A stretch of 64,000 nucleotides of DNA from Chloroflexota bacterium (GTDB lineage Bacteria; Chloroflexota; Anaerolineae; Promineifilales; Promineifilaceae). The notes beneath the pieces are model-generated. The model was not told the DNA's origin. It saw nothing but the letters and a program-made list of their open reading frames with translations, and did not search any database. Each line of letters opens with the position of its first letter. The first letter of the stretch is position 1. Both the position numbers and the translations under genes were made by a program. The stretch lies in the NCBI GenBank assembly GCA_024275635.1, contig JAJRYT010000139.1, positions 1 through 64,000 on the forward strand, written 5' to 3'. Positions 41,354-46,276 of this stretch are shown piece by piece.

Positions 41354-42448
41354 CTAAAATTGCCCCTCGCGCACCAGGTCAATCATGTCGCCCAGCACCC
41401 CGGCGGCGGTCATTTCCACGCCGGCCCCTTTGCCCCCGATGAGCAGCGGTTCGTCGTGGTAACGGCCGCTTCTGAAACTGATGTATTTCAAATTTGCCAG
41501 CGGGCTGTTGGCGGGGATCGCTTTCAGGCCCACCGTGCCGCGCCCGGCTTCCAGTTCGGCCACGTAACGCAGGACATCGCCTTCAGCGGCGGCGGCTTCC
41601 ACCCGTTGGCGCATCGGTTCATCGAGGACGGCCGTTTCCCGCATAAATTCGGCCACAGACAACGCCGCCATCGCTGCCGGGTAAAGCGATTCGACCACAA
41701 TATCTGCCGCTTCCAGCGGCCAGCCTGCCATCCGTCCCAAAATCATTACCTTGCGTATTACATCCTGCCCGCCCAAATCTTCGCGCGGGTCCGGTTCCGT
41801 AAAGCCGTTCGTTTTCGCCTGGGCCACCGCCTGCGAAAACGACACACCCTGGTCTAGCTGGCCGCAAATAAAGCCCAACGTGCCGCTCAACTGCCCTTCA
41901 ATCCGATAAATGGGATCATTCGTATCCAGCAGAGTGCGCAGTGTGGCGATAACCGGCTGGCCGCCGCCGACGGTAGATTCGTGCCGGATGCGGGGATGGT
42001 TGAAATAATTCTGGGCCGTTTCCCAGGGGCCGGCGAGCGCCTTTTTGTTCGCCAGGACGACGCCGTAGCCAAGCTGCAGGGCGCGGTCTATGATTGGTTC
42101 CATGCCCGCCTGGGCGGTGACATCCACGACAATCACGTTTTCCAGTTCGGCGGCGGGGGCAAAGTCAAGAATATCACGGTTCGACGGCCGTTCCCCGCTA
42201 ATTCTCGTTTGACGTCCCGATTCCGGGTTGGCCGGCAAGCCCATCTGTTTCGCTTCGATGATGCCCAATAACTGGGCGTCGCTCAACCCTTCCGGCTCCC
42301 AGGCCAGACTTTTGCGGTCGGCAGCTGCGACCACGTCGAATTGAATTTGATTACGGACGGCGGTGGCAAGACGGCCGTTTACAATCTGCCGCAGCAGCGC
42401 CTGCCCTACGCCCCCTACGCCAAAAACAATCACCGGAACCCGCTTCAT
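41354..42448 (-). CDS. hom: Homoserine dehydrogenase
   Basis: The enzyme reduces aspartate semialdehyde to homoserine on the way to threonine and methionine. The 364-residue protein has the NAD(P) motif VFGVGGVGQALLRQI (about residue 10), VIVVDVTAQAGMEP (about 105), catalytic-site VVLANKKALAGP (about 130) and the signature GFTEPDPREDLGGQDVIRKV (about 217). No ACT domain follows, so feedback inhibition by that route is not expected. The final part, IGGKGAGVEMTAAGVLGD, is usual. It is preceded by a promoter, an 18-codon leader and a terminator (42552-42758), which points to transcription attenuation. It lies far from other threonine-pathway genes in this window. Confidence 0.93.
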   Translation of the reverse strand: MKRVPVIVFGVGGVGQALLRQIVNGRLATAVRNQIQFDVVAAADRKSLAWEPEGLSDAQLLGIIEAKQMGLPANPESGRQTRISGERPSNRDILDFAPAAELENVIVVDVTAQAGMEPIIDRALQLGYGVVLANKKALAGPWETAQNYFNHPRIRHESTVGGGQPVIATLRTLLDTNDPIYRIEGQLSGTLGFICGQLDQGVSFSQAVAQAKTNGFTEPDPREDLGGQDVIRKVMILGRMAGWPLEAADIVVESLYPAAMAALSVAEFMRETAVLDEPMRQRVEAAAAEGDVLRYVAELEAGRGTVGLKAIPANSPLANLKYISFRSGRYHDEPLLIGGKGAGVEMTAAGVLGDMIDLVREGQF

Positions 42449-42488
42449 GACATTATTCCCCTAACCTGGATAAACCAGAAAAGATTCC

Positions 42489-42537
42489 GACACGAATTAC
42501 ACAAATGAGGACTGTGTTAATTCGTGAAATTCGTGTC
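42489..42537. repeat. AATTCGTG palindromic repeat, copy 3
   Basis: Arms GACACGAATT (42489-42498) and AATTCGTGTC (42528-42537), with an extra AATTCGTG inside. It is between the hom terminator and the hom start codon. Confidence 0.7.
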
Positions 42538-42551
42538 AAAATTCTTGTACT

Positions 42552-42587
42552 AAAAACCAAAGACCCCGTCCAAAAACGAGGCCTTTG
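42552..42587 (-). terminator. Intrinsic terminator/attenuator in the hom leader
   Basis: On the minus strand CAAAGGCCTCGT (42587-42576) pairs with ACGGGGTCTTTG (42569-42558). The stem is 12 bp with two G-U pairs, and the loop is six bases. The T-run TTTTT follows at 42556-42552. It stands between the leader peptide and hom on the hom strand. Confidence 0.8.
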
Positions 42588-42589
42588 TT

Positions 42590-42636
42590 GCACCGTAGCG
42601 CTTACTCACTCATCCGAGGAGGCTGCGCTACGGTGC
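42590..42636 (-). promoter_or_regulatory. Hairpin overlapping the leader-peptide stop
   Basis: Arms GCACCGTAGCGC and GCGCTACGGTGC, complementary over 12 bases, flank a 23-base loop. The first arm on the minus strand is inside leader codons 8-11 and the second begins immediately after its TAA. A ribosome in this region would prevent pairing. Confidence 0.75.
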
Positions 42637-42658
42637 GTTTAGATAAATTACTATCCAT
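42602..42658 (-). CDS. 18-residue leader peptide upstream of hom
   Basis: The reading frame is ATG 42658 to TAA 42602 and encodes MDSNLSKRTVAQPPRMSE. A near-perfect Shine-Dalgarno (AAGGAGG, about 42667-42673) lies eight bases before it. It has only one Thr and two Met, and no run of regulatory codons like those of the E. coli thr leader. It is flanked by a strong promoter and by an intrinsic terminator, so it may control hom by ribosome position. Alternatively it could be a free-standing small gene that ends at that terminator. Confidence 0.65.
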   Translation of the reverse strand: MDSNLSKRTVAQPPRMSE

Positions 42659-42729
42659 AAGCACCACCTCCTTTGCGTTAAAAGATAGCGGCGCAGCCAA
42701 TGGCTGCCAATCAATGAAATGATGGCTGC

Positions 42730-42758
42730 ATTATGGCATACCGGCGCAGCAATGTCAA
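42730..42758 (-). promoter_or_regulatory. Sigma-70 promoter for hom leader
   Basis: TTGACA (42758-42753) and CATAAT (42735-42730) on the minus strand, with a 17-base spacer. Start would be near 42723, giving about 64 bases before the leader ATG. That stretch contains a small hairpin GCAGCC-ATT-GGCTGC at 42693-42707. Confidence 0.8.
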
Positions 42759-42984: not shown

Positions 42985-43407
42985 TTATTGGCAGTCAGGG
43001 CAACGGCCGTATACCTCCAACAAATGGCTTTCTATCTGAAACTGGAAACGGCCGCAAACCATCTGCTCAATCTCGCTCAACACACAATCATCAAACTCGA
43101 TCACTTTATGGCAGACCGAACAAACCAGGTGATGGTGATGGCCGGCGTCCATCAAGATGTAGTGGGCGGCGCCTGTGCCTTGATAAACCGGGCGAATCAA
43201 TCCCAAGCCGCTTAACAAATCCAGCGTGCGGTACACGGTCATACGGCCTACGCCCGGCGCTTTTTCCCGCACTAAGGCGGCCAGATCATCGGCGGTGACA
43301 TGCCCGCCGCTGCTGGTTAACACCTGCAAAATGGCCCGGCGCGAGGCCGTTAAACGGTAGCCTTGTTCTTGTAACGCCGCGCTCAAACCGGCCAATAGGT
43401 CGCTCAT
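42985..43407 (-). CDS. zur: Fur-family regulator, probably Zur
   Basis: The 140-residue protein has the Fur winged-helix (LTASRRAILQVLTSSGGHV, then RMTVYRTLDLLSGLGLI) and a dimerisation domain with metal ligands HHHHLVCSVC (about residues 91-99) and CPDC at the end. The two CxxC pairs form the structural zinc site. It ends the znuA-znuC-znuB-zur run (order of transcription), so zinc is the likely signal and those genes the targets. A palindrome overlapping the znuA promoter (46277-46293) is the candidate operator. The 326-base gap downstream to the hom promoter holds no gene. Confidence 0.87.
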   Translation of the reverse strand: MSDLLAGLSAALQEQGYRLTASRRAILQVLTSSGGHVTADDLAALVREKAPGVGRMTVYRTLDLLSGLGLIRPVYQGTGAAHYILMDAGHHHHLVCSVCHKVIEFDDCVLSEIEQMVCGRFQFQIESHLLEVYGRCPDCQ

Positions 43408-43432
43408 TTTTCAACCAATCTCGCGTCATGAA

Positions 43433-44266
43433 TCATGCTTTGCGCCACATGATTCCCCGCCCTGGGGCAAACAAGAAGACGAGAACAAAAACGGCCGTCG
43501 CCACCAACACAATCGCCGGACCGGAAGCAATATCCAAATAATAAGACGCATATAAGCCGGTCACACTGGATAATGTGCCGATCACGGCCGCAATCGCCAT
43601 CATAGATGGCAGGCGGCGCGTCAATAACGAGGCCGCCGCCGCCGGCGTCACTAGCATCGCCATCATCAGGGCGATCCCCACAACCTGCAAGGAGACGACA
43701 ATGGTGACAGCGATTAGCGCCAGGAGTAGATAGCGCAGGAAGTTGGCCGGTAAGCGCAAGGTTGTCGCCAGCGCCGGATCGAAGGAGATGACGAGGAATT
43801 CCTTGTAAAAAAGCAAAATGGCGAGCAGGACAAATGCGCCCAGAACGGCCGTCACCCACAAGTCGGCCGTAGACACGCCCAGCAGGTTGCCGAATAGGAA
43901 ATGAGCCAGGTCAACGGTGTAGTTGCCCGTGGCCGACAGCATGGCTACGCCCAGGGCAAATGCGCCGGCAAAAATGACGCCGATGGCGGTATCCTCCTTC
44001 ATCATGCCCTGGCTGCTAAGCGCGCCGATGCCTAAGGCGGTCAATAGGCCCATTGCCAATGCGCCCACGGCCAGCGGCCAACCAAACAGGAAAGCGACCA
44101 CGACGCCCGGCAAAATGGTATGGGCCAGCGCGTCGCCGAAGAAGGCCATGCCCCGCAAAATGACGTAGGTTCCGAACACGGACCCCACCACGCCAACGAC
44201 CATCGCCGCCAGCAAAGCGCGAACAATAAAACTGTATTGGAGCGGTTCAATTAGCCAGGTTAACAT
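43433..44266 (-). CDS. znuB: Zinc/metal ABC transporter permease
   Basis: ZnuB-type permeases carry metal ions inward. The 277-residue protein has about eight hydrophobic helices, from IVRALLAAMVVGVVGSVFG to GPAIVLVATAVFVLVFLF, and the family motif ILRGMAFFGDALAHTILPGV (about residue 38). It lies downstream of the ATPase gene and 25 bases before the Fur-family gene. Metal identity (Zn rather than Mn) is inferred from the neighbours. It contains ACGGCCGT at 43490 and 43844. Confidence 0.9.
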   Translation of the reverse strand: MLTWLIEPLQYSFIVRALLAAMVVGVVGSVFGTYVILRGMAFFGDALAHTILPGVVVAFLFGWPLAVGALAMGLLTALGIGALSSQGMMKEDTAIGVIFAGAFALGVAMLSATGNYTVDLAHFLFGNLLGVSTADLWVTAVLGAFVLLAILLFYKEFLVISFDPALATTLRLPANFLRYLLLALIAVTIVVSLQVVGIALMMAMLVTPAAAASLLTRRLPSMMAIAAVIGTLSSVTGLYASYYLDIASGPAIVLVATAVFVLVFLFAPGRGIMWRKA

Positions 44267-44321
44267 AGTTCAAGTTTGCAAGCGGGCAAGCGGCAAGTCG
44301 CCTCTGTACCCCATCACCTCT

Positions 44322-45185
44322 TCACCCCTGCCTCTCCTCATAGTGGTCACAACATTCATCTGTCAGCAGGATGTCGCTGTTACCGAGAACGTGCATGTGT
44401 CCGCCGTAGGCTTGCAGTAGATTGCGGGGTTCGAGAACGGCCGTTGCCACATCAAAAGCGACGATCTTCTTATTCAATAACATGATCCGGTCAAAGCGGG
44501 CCGCCGCCAGGTCTAGATCATGCGTTGCCACCAACACCGTCACGCCGTCAGGACGCAGCGCATCCAATATCTCAAAAATTTTCTCCTGATTCGGCACATC
44601 CAATCCAGCTAAAGGCTCATCCATTAACAACAGTTCCGCTTCCTGCGCCAGGGCGCGGGCGATAAACACCCGCTGCTGCTGCCCGCCAGACAGTTCGCCA
44701 ATTTGTTTTTTTGCCAGGCGCGCCGCGTTGACTCGCGCCAGGCTGTTTCTGACCAGTTCCCAATCACGGCGGCGGGGCCAGTGAAATAAACCTATCTGGC
44801 CCACGCGCCCCATCATGACCACATCCTCTACCGTCACCGGGAATGACCAATCTATCTGGCTGCGTTGGGGGACATAAGCAATGCAAATATGGCCGCTGGG
44901 ACCGTGTCCGTATACGTTCACTGAGCCGCGGCTGGGTTTCAGGGCGCCGACAATCAGCTTAAACAAGGTACTCTTACCCGCTCCATTCGGCCCAACGACA
45001 GCGATCCGTTCCCCGGCCTTCACCTGGAAGGAAACGGCTTCCAGGGCGAACTGGGCGCTTCGCGCTGAGGTGACGCCTTGCGCGCCTTCAGCGTAAGCGA
45101 CAAACACATCGTCTAGCTGGAGCGTCGGCGATGCCGGTTGATGGGTTACATGCCGGGGGATGATTTTGGCGACTAGGTTACTCAT
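44322..45185 (-). CDS. znuC: Zinc/metal ABC transporter ATPase
   Basis: The 287-residue ATPase has Walker A GPNGAGKSTL (about 60), signature [10 protein letters not shown] (about 164) and Walker B LLMDEPLAGLD (about 185), with a Q-loop at YVPQRSQIDWSFPVTV. The 30-residue lead before the core is unusual, and the tail ends with DECCDHYEERQ, a Cys/His patch that might touch metal. ATG 45185 is preferred over TTG 45200. It is 18 bases after znuA. Confidence 0.9.
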   Translation of the reverse strand: MSNLVAKIIPRHVTHQPASPTLQLDDVFVAYAEGAQGVTSARSAQFALEAVSFQVKAGERIAVVGPNGAGKSTLFKLIVGALKPSRGSVNVYGHGPSGHICIAYVPQRSQIDWSFPVTVEDVVMMGRVGQIGLFHWPRRRDWELVRNSLARVNAARLAKKQIGELSGGQQQRVFIARALAQEAELLLMDEPLAGLDVPNQEKIFEILDALRPDGVTVLVATHDLDLAAARFDRIMLLNKKIVAFDVATAVLEPRNLLQAYGGHMHVLGNSDILLTDECCDHYEERQG

Positions 45186-45203
45186 GTCATTAATCTTCAA
45201 TCT

Positions 45204-46259
45204 TTAATCTCTCGATCCAGTAATAATCGTGTCTAAATTTGCCCGCATCATGCCGATGTAACTATCGGCGCCGCTGCCGGGTTCCCCCAGCGCGCCCGTA
45301 TAAAGCGATAGTACCTGAACGGCCGTACAGCTTGCTAATTCAGCGGCCACTGACCGGGCTAACTGGTCGCTGGTTGAAGTTTCGGCAAAAATGGCGCAGA
45401 CGTTGGCCTGGTTCATGGTTTTTACCAATTCGGCCAGTTCGCTGGCTGAGGGCGCAGCCAGGGCGCTGGCGGCAGGCAGGATGGTTCCGATAACCTGGAA
45501 ATGATACCGGTCGGCAAAGTAGCCCAGGCTGTCATGGTTGGCGACGAGTTTACGGCCGTTTTCCGGGATTCCCTCGATTCGCTTTTCAAATTCAGCCATC
45601 AGCGCTTTCAATTCTTCCCGGTATACATCGGTATTTTGGTCATAAACGGCGGCATTGTCCGGGTCCAAATCGCTGAGGATGATTTTAATATTCGCCACCC
45701 ACTGAATGACATTGGCTGGATCGAACCAGACGTGGGGGTCGGGCGCGCCGTGGGCGTCATCGCCCTGGTTGGCGGCGGGCGTTAATTCGCGCGGATCGAT
45801 GCGGGCGGAGACGGCGACGATGGGAACGTCTCCGGCTACATTGGTTAGATTTTTGATCAGCCCTTCTTCCAAATTCCAGCCGTTGACAAAGATGATGTGG
45901 GCGTCGGCGACGGCCGTTAAATCCTGCGCCGACGGTTCATAGCTGTGCGGGTCCTGGCCCGGCGCTATCAACGTCGTCAATTCAATCGCCGCGCCGCCCA
46001 CCTGGGCAACCACATCCCCGATAATACTGGTGGTAGCGACGACTTTTAGTTTGCCGCCGTTTAGATCGACCGGTTCCAATGCCGGCAAGGACAGCATTTG
46101 TGAATCATGCGTGTGATCGTGATCATCAGCGGCCGTTTCATCAGCATGGTCATGCTCATCAGACGCGACGGTTTCGCCGCCAGCCGTCTGGCAGCCGGCC
46201 AACAACAGCCCTGCAAACAAAAACAGGGCGAACCCTGTTTGTAACGGTTTCCAATTCAT
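45204..46259 (-). CDS. znuA: Zinc-binding lipoprotein of ABC uptake system
   Basis: The product, 351 residues from ATG 46259, is a ZnuA-type receptor. A lipobox (FAGLLLAGC) anchors it. A His/Asp-rich stretch (DEHDHADET, then DDHDHTHDS) follows directly, and the binding domain starts at LKVVATTSIIGDVV. Metal ligands fit DPHSYEPSAQD, DPHVWFDP and NHDSLGYFA. The His-rich patch sits at the N-terminus rather than in the central loop of E. coli ZnuA. GTG 46271 overlaps the ribosome site (AGGAG), so ATG 46259 is preferred. It leads znuC, znuB and zur, with a candidate Zur box across its promoter. Confidence 0.92.
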   Translation of the reverse strand: MNWKPLQTGFALFLFAGLLLAGCQTAGGETVASDEHDHADETAADDHDHTHDSQMLSLPALEPVDLNGGKLKVVATTSIIGDVVAQVGGAAIELTTLIAPGQDPHSYEPSAQDLTAVADAHIIFVNGWNLEEGLIKNLTNVAGDVPIVAVSARIDPRELTPAANQGDDAHGAPDPHVWFDPANVIQWVANIKIILSDLDPDNAAVYDQNTDVYREELKALMAEFEKRIEGIPENGRKLVANHDSLGYFADRYHFQVIGTILPAASALAAPSASELAELVKTMNQANVCAIFAETSTSDQLARSVAAELASCTAVQVLSLYTGALGEPGSGADSYIGMMRANLDTIITGSRD

Positions 46260-46276
46260 TCTCGAAATCACTCCTA

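Follow-up and report, generated by a model that had tools for sequence, protein, structure and literature searches.

A putative stand-alone small RNA gene of Chloroflexota with a Shine-Dalgarno sequence predicted to be gated by alternative helices and ribosome loading

The element that precedes the homoserine dehydrogenase gene (hom) on the minus strand of the window, the whole stretch of 64,000 nucleotides that we analysed, is probably a stand-alone small RNA gene, in which alternative helices and ribosome loading would control access to the Shine-Dalgarno sequence (SD) of a short open reading frame (ORF). We give this reading a probability of about 0.62. The element is conserved, its helices covary, its reading frame is kept around a peptide that is itself unconstrained, its SD is gated in folding predictions, and it occurs independently of the genes next to it.

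Anatomy and distribution of the element

On the minus strand, the parts of the element follow each other in the order promoter, small hairpin, AAAGGAGGTGGTGC, ORF, stop hairpin and terminator. The promoter (42730..42758), identified by a consensus scan and the family alignment, reads TTGACA-17-CATAAT with an extended -10 (TATGCCATAATG); it matches the consensus at 11 of 12 positions in the window scan, and a TG precedes the -10. In a 20-sequence alignment of the family neither TTGAC nor the -10 core CATAAT varies, and a similar promoter is found upstream of most copies in other families. The small 5' hairpin, GCAGCC-ATT-GGCTGC (42693..42707), is optional according to sequence and alignments, being missing from genus g22. 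Immediately 5' of the SD lies a box, GCNATCYTWA (42680..42689), that is conserved in alignments of the family and its relatives; its UCYU is, by eye, a weak match to the AGGA of the SD, with which it may pair weakly.

The SD of the ORF is AAAGGAGG, and in its extended form AGGAGGTGGTGC (42661..42672), complementary to the 3' tail of 16S, it constitutes arm 1. The ORF that follows (42602..42658) translates as the 18 codons of MDSNLSKRTVAQPPRMSE, ends in a TAA stop and keeps its frame in relatives. It contains arm 2, the anti-SD GCGCAGCCTCCT (42617..42628), which is the partner of arm 1 and a near-copy of the 16S 3' tail; this tail, GGCTGGATCACCTCC, was found in one genome of the same family (G025) and in four more distant Chloroflexota, and was not found in the window's own genome assembly, which is incomplete. 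Arm 2 is overlapped by the 5' arm of the stop hairpin (GCACCGTAGCGC; 42625..42636), and the 3' arm of that hairpin, arm 3 (GCGCTACGGTGC; 42590..42601), begins right after the stop codon, so that 42636-42625 and 42601-42590 form a perfect 12-bp helix around it. The intrinsic terminator (42550..42587) has a 13-pair stem followed by a U-run, GTTTTTAG, in the window scan. The earlier note on this DNA had described the promoter, the small hairpin, the 18-codon frame with its SD, the 12-bp stop hairpin and a 12-bp terminator with a T-run; all of these are in the sequence, with the terminator stem one pair longer. The downstream neighbour in the window is hom (41354..42448, minus strand; Pfam PF00742 and PF03447), which is not a fixed part of the element.

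Consensus scans alone are close to chance, with 4 promoters found against 3.1 in shuffled sequence, and it is because of its conservation that the element is not a chance arrangement. AAGGAGGTG occurs once within the 64-kb window, and the 5.7-Mb genome has a single instance of an SD with an in-frame anti-SD. In a DNA search of 98 relatives with a query taken from the window, query positions 1-210 (42760-42551) were recovered from most of the family, and positions 212-302 (~42549-42459) matched dispersed copies. A covariance model built from 19 family sequences (R1) matched in 50 of the 52 family genomes, with E-values down to 1e-38. The earlier note had exposed its reading to the objection of non-conservation in relatives, and this comparison disposes of that objection. 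A second model, built from 78 sequences (R2), matched 243 of 396 genomes of the class at E<=1e-5, with exactly one match each and in 141 of 222 genera, and 168 of 400 genomes of the phylum at E<=1e-3, the genomes being mostly metagenome assemblies and the covariance-model E-values rough. Matches outside the class Anaerolineae were weaker; of the 39 that were put through a simple check for the three arms, 22 passed. Two matches per genome were seen in G687 (L180 and L181), G684, G440 and G689, and the two copies of G687 differ in sequence.

At gathering scores, Rfam gave no match in the window and none to the element in 12 loci, and below threshold it gave chance-like matches only (E 0.07-4.4); a known Rfam riboswitch, T-box or leader family is ruled out by the lack of a match at gathering score. 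We found no description of a Chloroflexi small RNA of similar kind in the open-access PMC literature. The Chloroflexi-1 RNA motif (RF01698), for which the published table lists only Chloroflexus aggregans (PMC2864571), is likewise a structured-RNA candidate of this phylum, and it gave no match to the element. A structured RNA gene that has stayed single-copy across much of a bacterial phylum and has no Rfam entry is usually a sign of a core function.

The surroundings of the element in the window hold two further features. Between the terminator and hom lies a palindromic repeat (ACACGAATTTCACGAATT...AATTCGTGT; 42459-42549), to which the DNA search found related copies at several other places in the genome and in other Chloroflexota; this repeat, just before hom, is separate from the element. 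Upstream, on the same strand, 42985-46271 encodes a Fur-family regulator (Pfam FUR) and, with names given by eye, a membrane protein and an ATPase resembling parts of an ABC transporter, as well as a His-rich protein similar to a zinc-binding lipoprotein, and is likely a zinc uptake locus.

Neighbouring genes and the relation to hom

The earlier note took the element for the leader of homoserine dehydrogenase. Accordingly, one may consider a cis attenuator, in which the position of the ribosome on the leader ORF would decide whether the terminator forms, tuned to the supply of threonine, methionine or isoleucine. Such a role finds support in the position of hom directly behind the element in 28 of the 46 testable family genomes. 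In four of them (G014, G019, G022 and G034) hom starts 7-9 nt past the end of the model match, which leaves no room for a promoter, so that hom there must depend on read-through. In the window no promoter was predicted between the terminator and hom, and hom probably lives on terminator read-through there as well. Hom-linked terminators are also somewhat weaker, with a median of -22.6 kcal/mol before hom and -25.8 kcal/mol before a convergent gene (p 1.5e-4), a difference that might reflect a cis role for hom, although clade is a confounder and the picture within genera is mixed.

Against this stand the other 18 testable family genomes, each with at least ~1 kb of sequence beyond the element, in which hom is absent behind it. 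In at least eight of the 18, a gene on the other strand converges on the element, as in genus g4, where this is a pentapeptide-repeat gene; in genus g6 the gene behind it is Lon-like (named by eye), and in G007, G015, G016 and G027 hom is located on another contig. No hom was found by tblastn behind the element in 40 genomes of other Anaerolineae families. The same-strand neighbour in about a dozen genomes from several of these families is an AIR-synthase-like gene that starts shortly after the element (for example in L125, L126 and L132, with Pfam AIRS/AIRS_C in L125); it is probably fed by read-through, as is probably any same-strand downstream gene without promoter room. Convergent neighbours in these families include genes for phosphofructokinase, adenylosuccinate lyase (purB), response regulators, kinases and an SDR. 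Where hom is missing, the helices are just as strong, with 10-11/11 SD pairs and a hairpin of 13-16 bp in genus g4, and in G009 and G032 a TATAAT directly before the start of hom is compatible with a promoter of its own.

The architecture of the element also argues against attenuation of hom. Consensus folding gave no antiterminator that competes with the terminator stem; arm 3 and the terminator fall into separate helices without overlap, and the spacer and the terminator sequence vary freely among copies. The peptide holds no conserved run of Thr, Ile or Met codons, either in the family or in other copies, and its single Thr codon is missing in G007, G018, G027, G032, G033, G038, G043 and others. 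The view of the earlier note that a classic thr attenuator does not fit is therefore upheld, and an attenuator of that type is ruled out by the lack of a codon run and of an antiterminator. A hom-specific regulator as the general role is ruled out by the neighbours in the family, the class and the phylum. As to the ribosome-position control that the earlier note proposed, it may apply to the RNA itself rather than to hom. Overall we regard a cis attenuator of hom as improbable, and attenuation of hom is possible as a local side effect in the hom-linked genomes only. Synteny with hom and with the AIR-synthase-like gene exceeds random; the adjacency to hom in part of one family is best read as the happenstance position of a separate gene. 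The case corrects a natural misreading, in that a biosynthetic gene may be preceded by a promoter, a leader ORF and a terminator that do not form its attenuator.

Leader-peptide attenuators of the thrL, trpL and ilv type combine a short ORF and a strong SD with mutually exclusive helices, a terminator and a hairpin adjacent to the stop codon. The element resembles them in its short ORF with a strong SD, its exclusive helices, its later terminator and the hairpin at its stop codon. Unlike them, it has neither a regulatory codon run nor an antiterminator overlapping the terminator, and it has no fixed downstream gene, with a convergent gene in many genomes. With a promoter and a terminator that appear to be its own and that are independent of its neighbours, the element resembles the dual-function small RNAs (SgrS/SgrT, RNAIII/hld, SR1), which are small RNAs with a small ORF.

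Competing helices around the Shine-Dalgarno sequence

RNAalifold pairs arm 1 (AGGAGGUGGUGC) with arm 2 (GCGCURCCUCCU) inside the ORF. That the SD could pair with CCUCC in the leader codons had been suggested from the window alone, and the relatives bear this out: 11/11 SD-core positions pair in 40 of the 50 family genomes and 10/11 in the other 10, and over the 78 sequences 95.1% of cells are paired, with 37 double-change cells and a covariation score that none of 500 shuffles reached. For the stop hairpin and the terminator, 97.2% of cells are paired, with 383 double-change cells and a covariation score of 0.581, compared with 0.224 in shuffles. The SD helix and the stop hairpin share the GCGC(U) stretch and are therefore mutually exclusive, and the terminator overlaps neither of them. 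In two cases from different genera, G003/G024 and G018, the SD is GGUGAUGC and arm 2 is GCAUUACC or GCAUCGCC, so that the A/U-type change in arm 1 is matched in both arm 2 and arm 3.

Thermodynamic predictions on the single strand, which include neither ribosome nor RNA polymerase, suggest how these helices would act on the SD. Averaged over the 50 RNAs of the family, the SD core has an unpaired probability of 0.40 as long as arm 2 is still to be transcribed, of 0.02 with arm 2 and of 0.38 with arm 3; for the RNA of the window the three stages give 0.79, 0.01 and 0.70, and the 39 copies from outside the family show a similar pattern. When the ORF part was shuffled as a control, predicted SD exposure was 0.244, against 0.029 in the real sequences, which were lower in 88 of 89 copies. 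When arm 3 was shuffled, exposure was 0.077, against 0.339 in the real sequences, which were higher in 82 of 89.

We infer from sequence that the element produces an RNA, that ribosomes translate it, and that the ribosome determines which state it adopts. According to this model, the element's own promoter would give rise to an RNA of ~170 nt that ends at its own terminator. The nascent RNA would first expose a near-perfect SD; transcription of the middle of the ORF would then allow arm 2, which repeats the 16S 3' tail in frame, to close the SD, and once arm 3 is made, arm 2 would be reclaimed into the stop hairpin and the SD would reopen. A ribosome loaded on the RNA would translate the 14-19 codons up to a stop codon that borders arm 3, and from there its footprint should hold both helices apart. 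The result would be a two-state RNA, the state of which is set by the timing of transcription and by ribosome loading.

In hok-type mRNAs, which encode a membrane toxin, the SD is hidden and freed by rearrangement of helices. The SD of our element would, in the folding model, be alternately sequestered and freed in a similar way, depending on the extent to which its 3' part has been made. The element differs in that its peptide consists of 14-19 polar, unconstrained residues rather than a hydrophobic toxin, and in being a single-copy chromosomal gene. It thus fails defining features of attenuators as well as of hok-type mRNAs, and its layout is that common to dual-function small RNAs.

Yfr1 and other anti-SD small RNAs are phylum-wide small RNAs with an anti-SD-like stretch, and our element is like them in both respects, with the difference that its anti-SD pairs in cis with its own SD and lies within an ORF. 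One may consider that it acts in trans, in the manner of Yfr1 or of 'cuckoo' anti-SD small RNAs, the CACCUCC in the loop of its stop hairpin blocking the SDs of other mRNAs. The loop of the formed stop hairpin does expose (C)ACCUCC in Anaerolineae, and the element is a stand-alone, single-copy gene. Yet in Chloroflexia-type copies the anti-SD forms part of the stem and a CUCC loop is not retained, the most constant part of the element is the SD and not the anti-SD, and action in trans would leave the conserved reading frame unexplained. We therefore hold such a trans-acting role to be rather unlikely.

A kept reading frame and the likely output

The anti-SD is in frame with the start codon in 50/50 family copies and in 36/39 others (86/89 in all), and the frame is kept even though the distance from the ATG to the anti-SD ranges from 27 to 36 nt across copies. 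Two of the three exceptions still have an ORF of 17 codons, and the third comes from a single-contig MAG (G085; 77% completeness) in which an indel error is possible. The ORF is 16-19 codons long in these copies, with one exception of 9 codons, and the position of the stop codon at the edge of arm 3 is conserved. As in dual-function small RNAs, then, a small ORF is kept open.

These features, namely the retention of frame, start, SD and stop, together with a weak shared peptide start, M-[DS]-x-S-S-x-[KR], in several classes, might point to a gene for a functional peptide of 14-19 residues whose expression is under the control of the SD switch. A codon test based on single-base differences between close sequences speaks otherwise. 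In the N-terminal part 19 of 200 differences are synonymous (9.5%, compared with 16% expected) and in the C-terminal part 60 of 220 (27%, compared with 21% expected); the fraction below expectation in the N-terminal part means that the peptide is without constraint there. As judged by this test, the amino acids are under no purifying selection, and on this ground a conserved functional peptide was rejected. The most constant residues, moreover, coincide with pairing constraints, and the constant V-A-[LS]-P stems from pairing. The anti-SD codons read A-S-P or A-L-P in Anaerolineae and G-I-T, in a different frame, in Chloroflexia-type copies. A functional peptide is thus an unlikely explanation. 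The frame seems, from the sequences, to be kept for the passage of the ribosome and not for the peptide product, and the combination of a conserved frame, an unconserved peptide and a covarying SD/anti-SD switch would make this a clean and testable case of a frame kept for ribosome movement.

For the stand-alone small RNA gene that we favour, neither the peptide nor the next gene is the most likely output; more probably it is the RNA itself or the act of its translation. As the constant part comprises the SD and the start region, ribosome binding or the translation event is a likelier output than a seed, the peptide or the next gene. The element departs here from SgrS/SgrT, RNAIII/hld and SR1, with which it shares a stand-alone promoter and terminator and a translated-looking ORF, since its peptide is unconserved, no conserved exposed base-pairing seed was seen in it outside the SD and anti-SD, and its SD is gated by an in-frame anti-SD. 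One may tentatively speculate that it is a ribosome-sensing RNA that unites a maximal SD with an in-frame version of the 16S tail, and in which the ORF is open only so that the loading and transit of the ribosome set the two-state fold, reporting or buffering the capacity for translation initiation; related versions may then exist in other phyla, the analogue in Acidobacteriota being a candidate.

The R2 model gave 3 weak matches in 149 Acidobacteriota genomes. The Acidobacteriota loci L224-L228 (in L209 near 1500) carry an analogous stand-alone element, which has no Rfam match. It consists of AAGGAGGTGATCC, a 14-codon ORF such as VDSNRYGLVEVASS*, a conserved ACGGGGTaACCCAACGCCAC segment and a terminator, and is present in 5 of 120 relatives.
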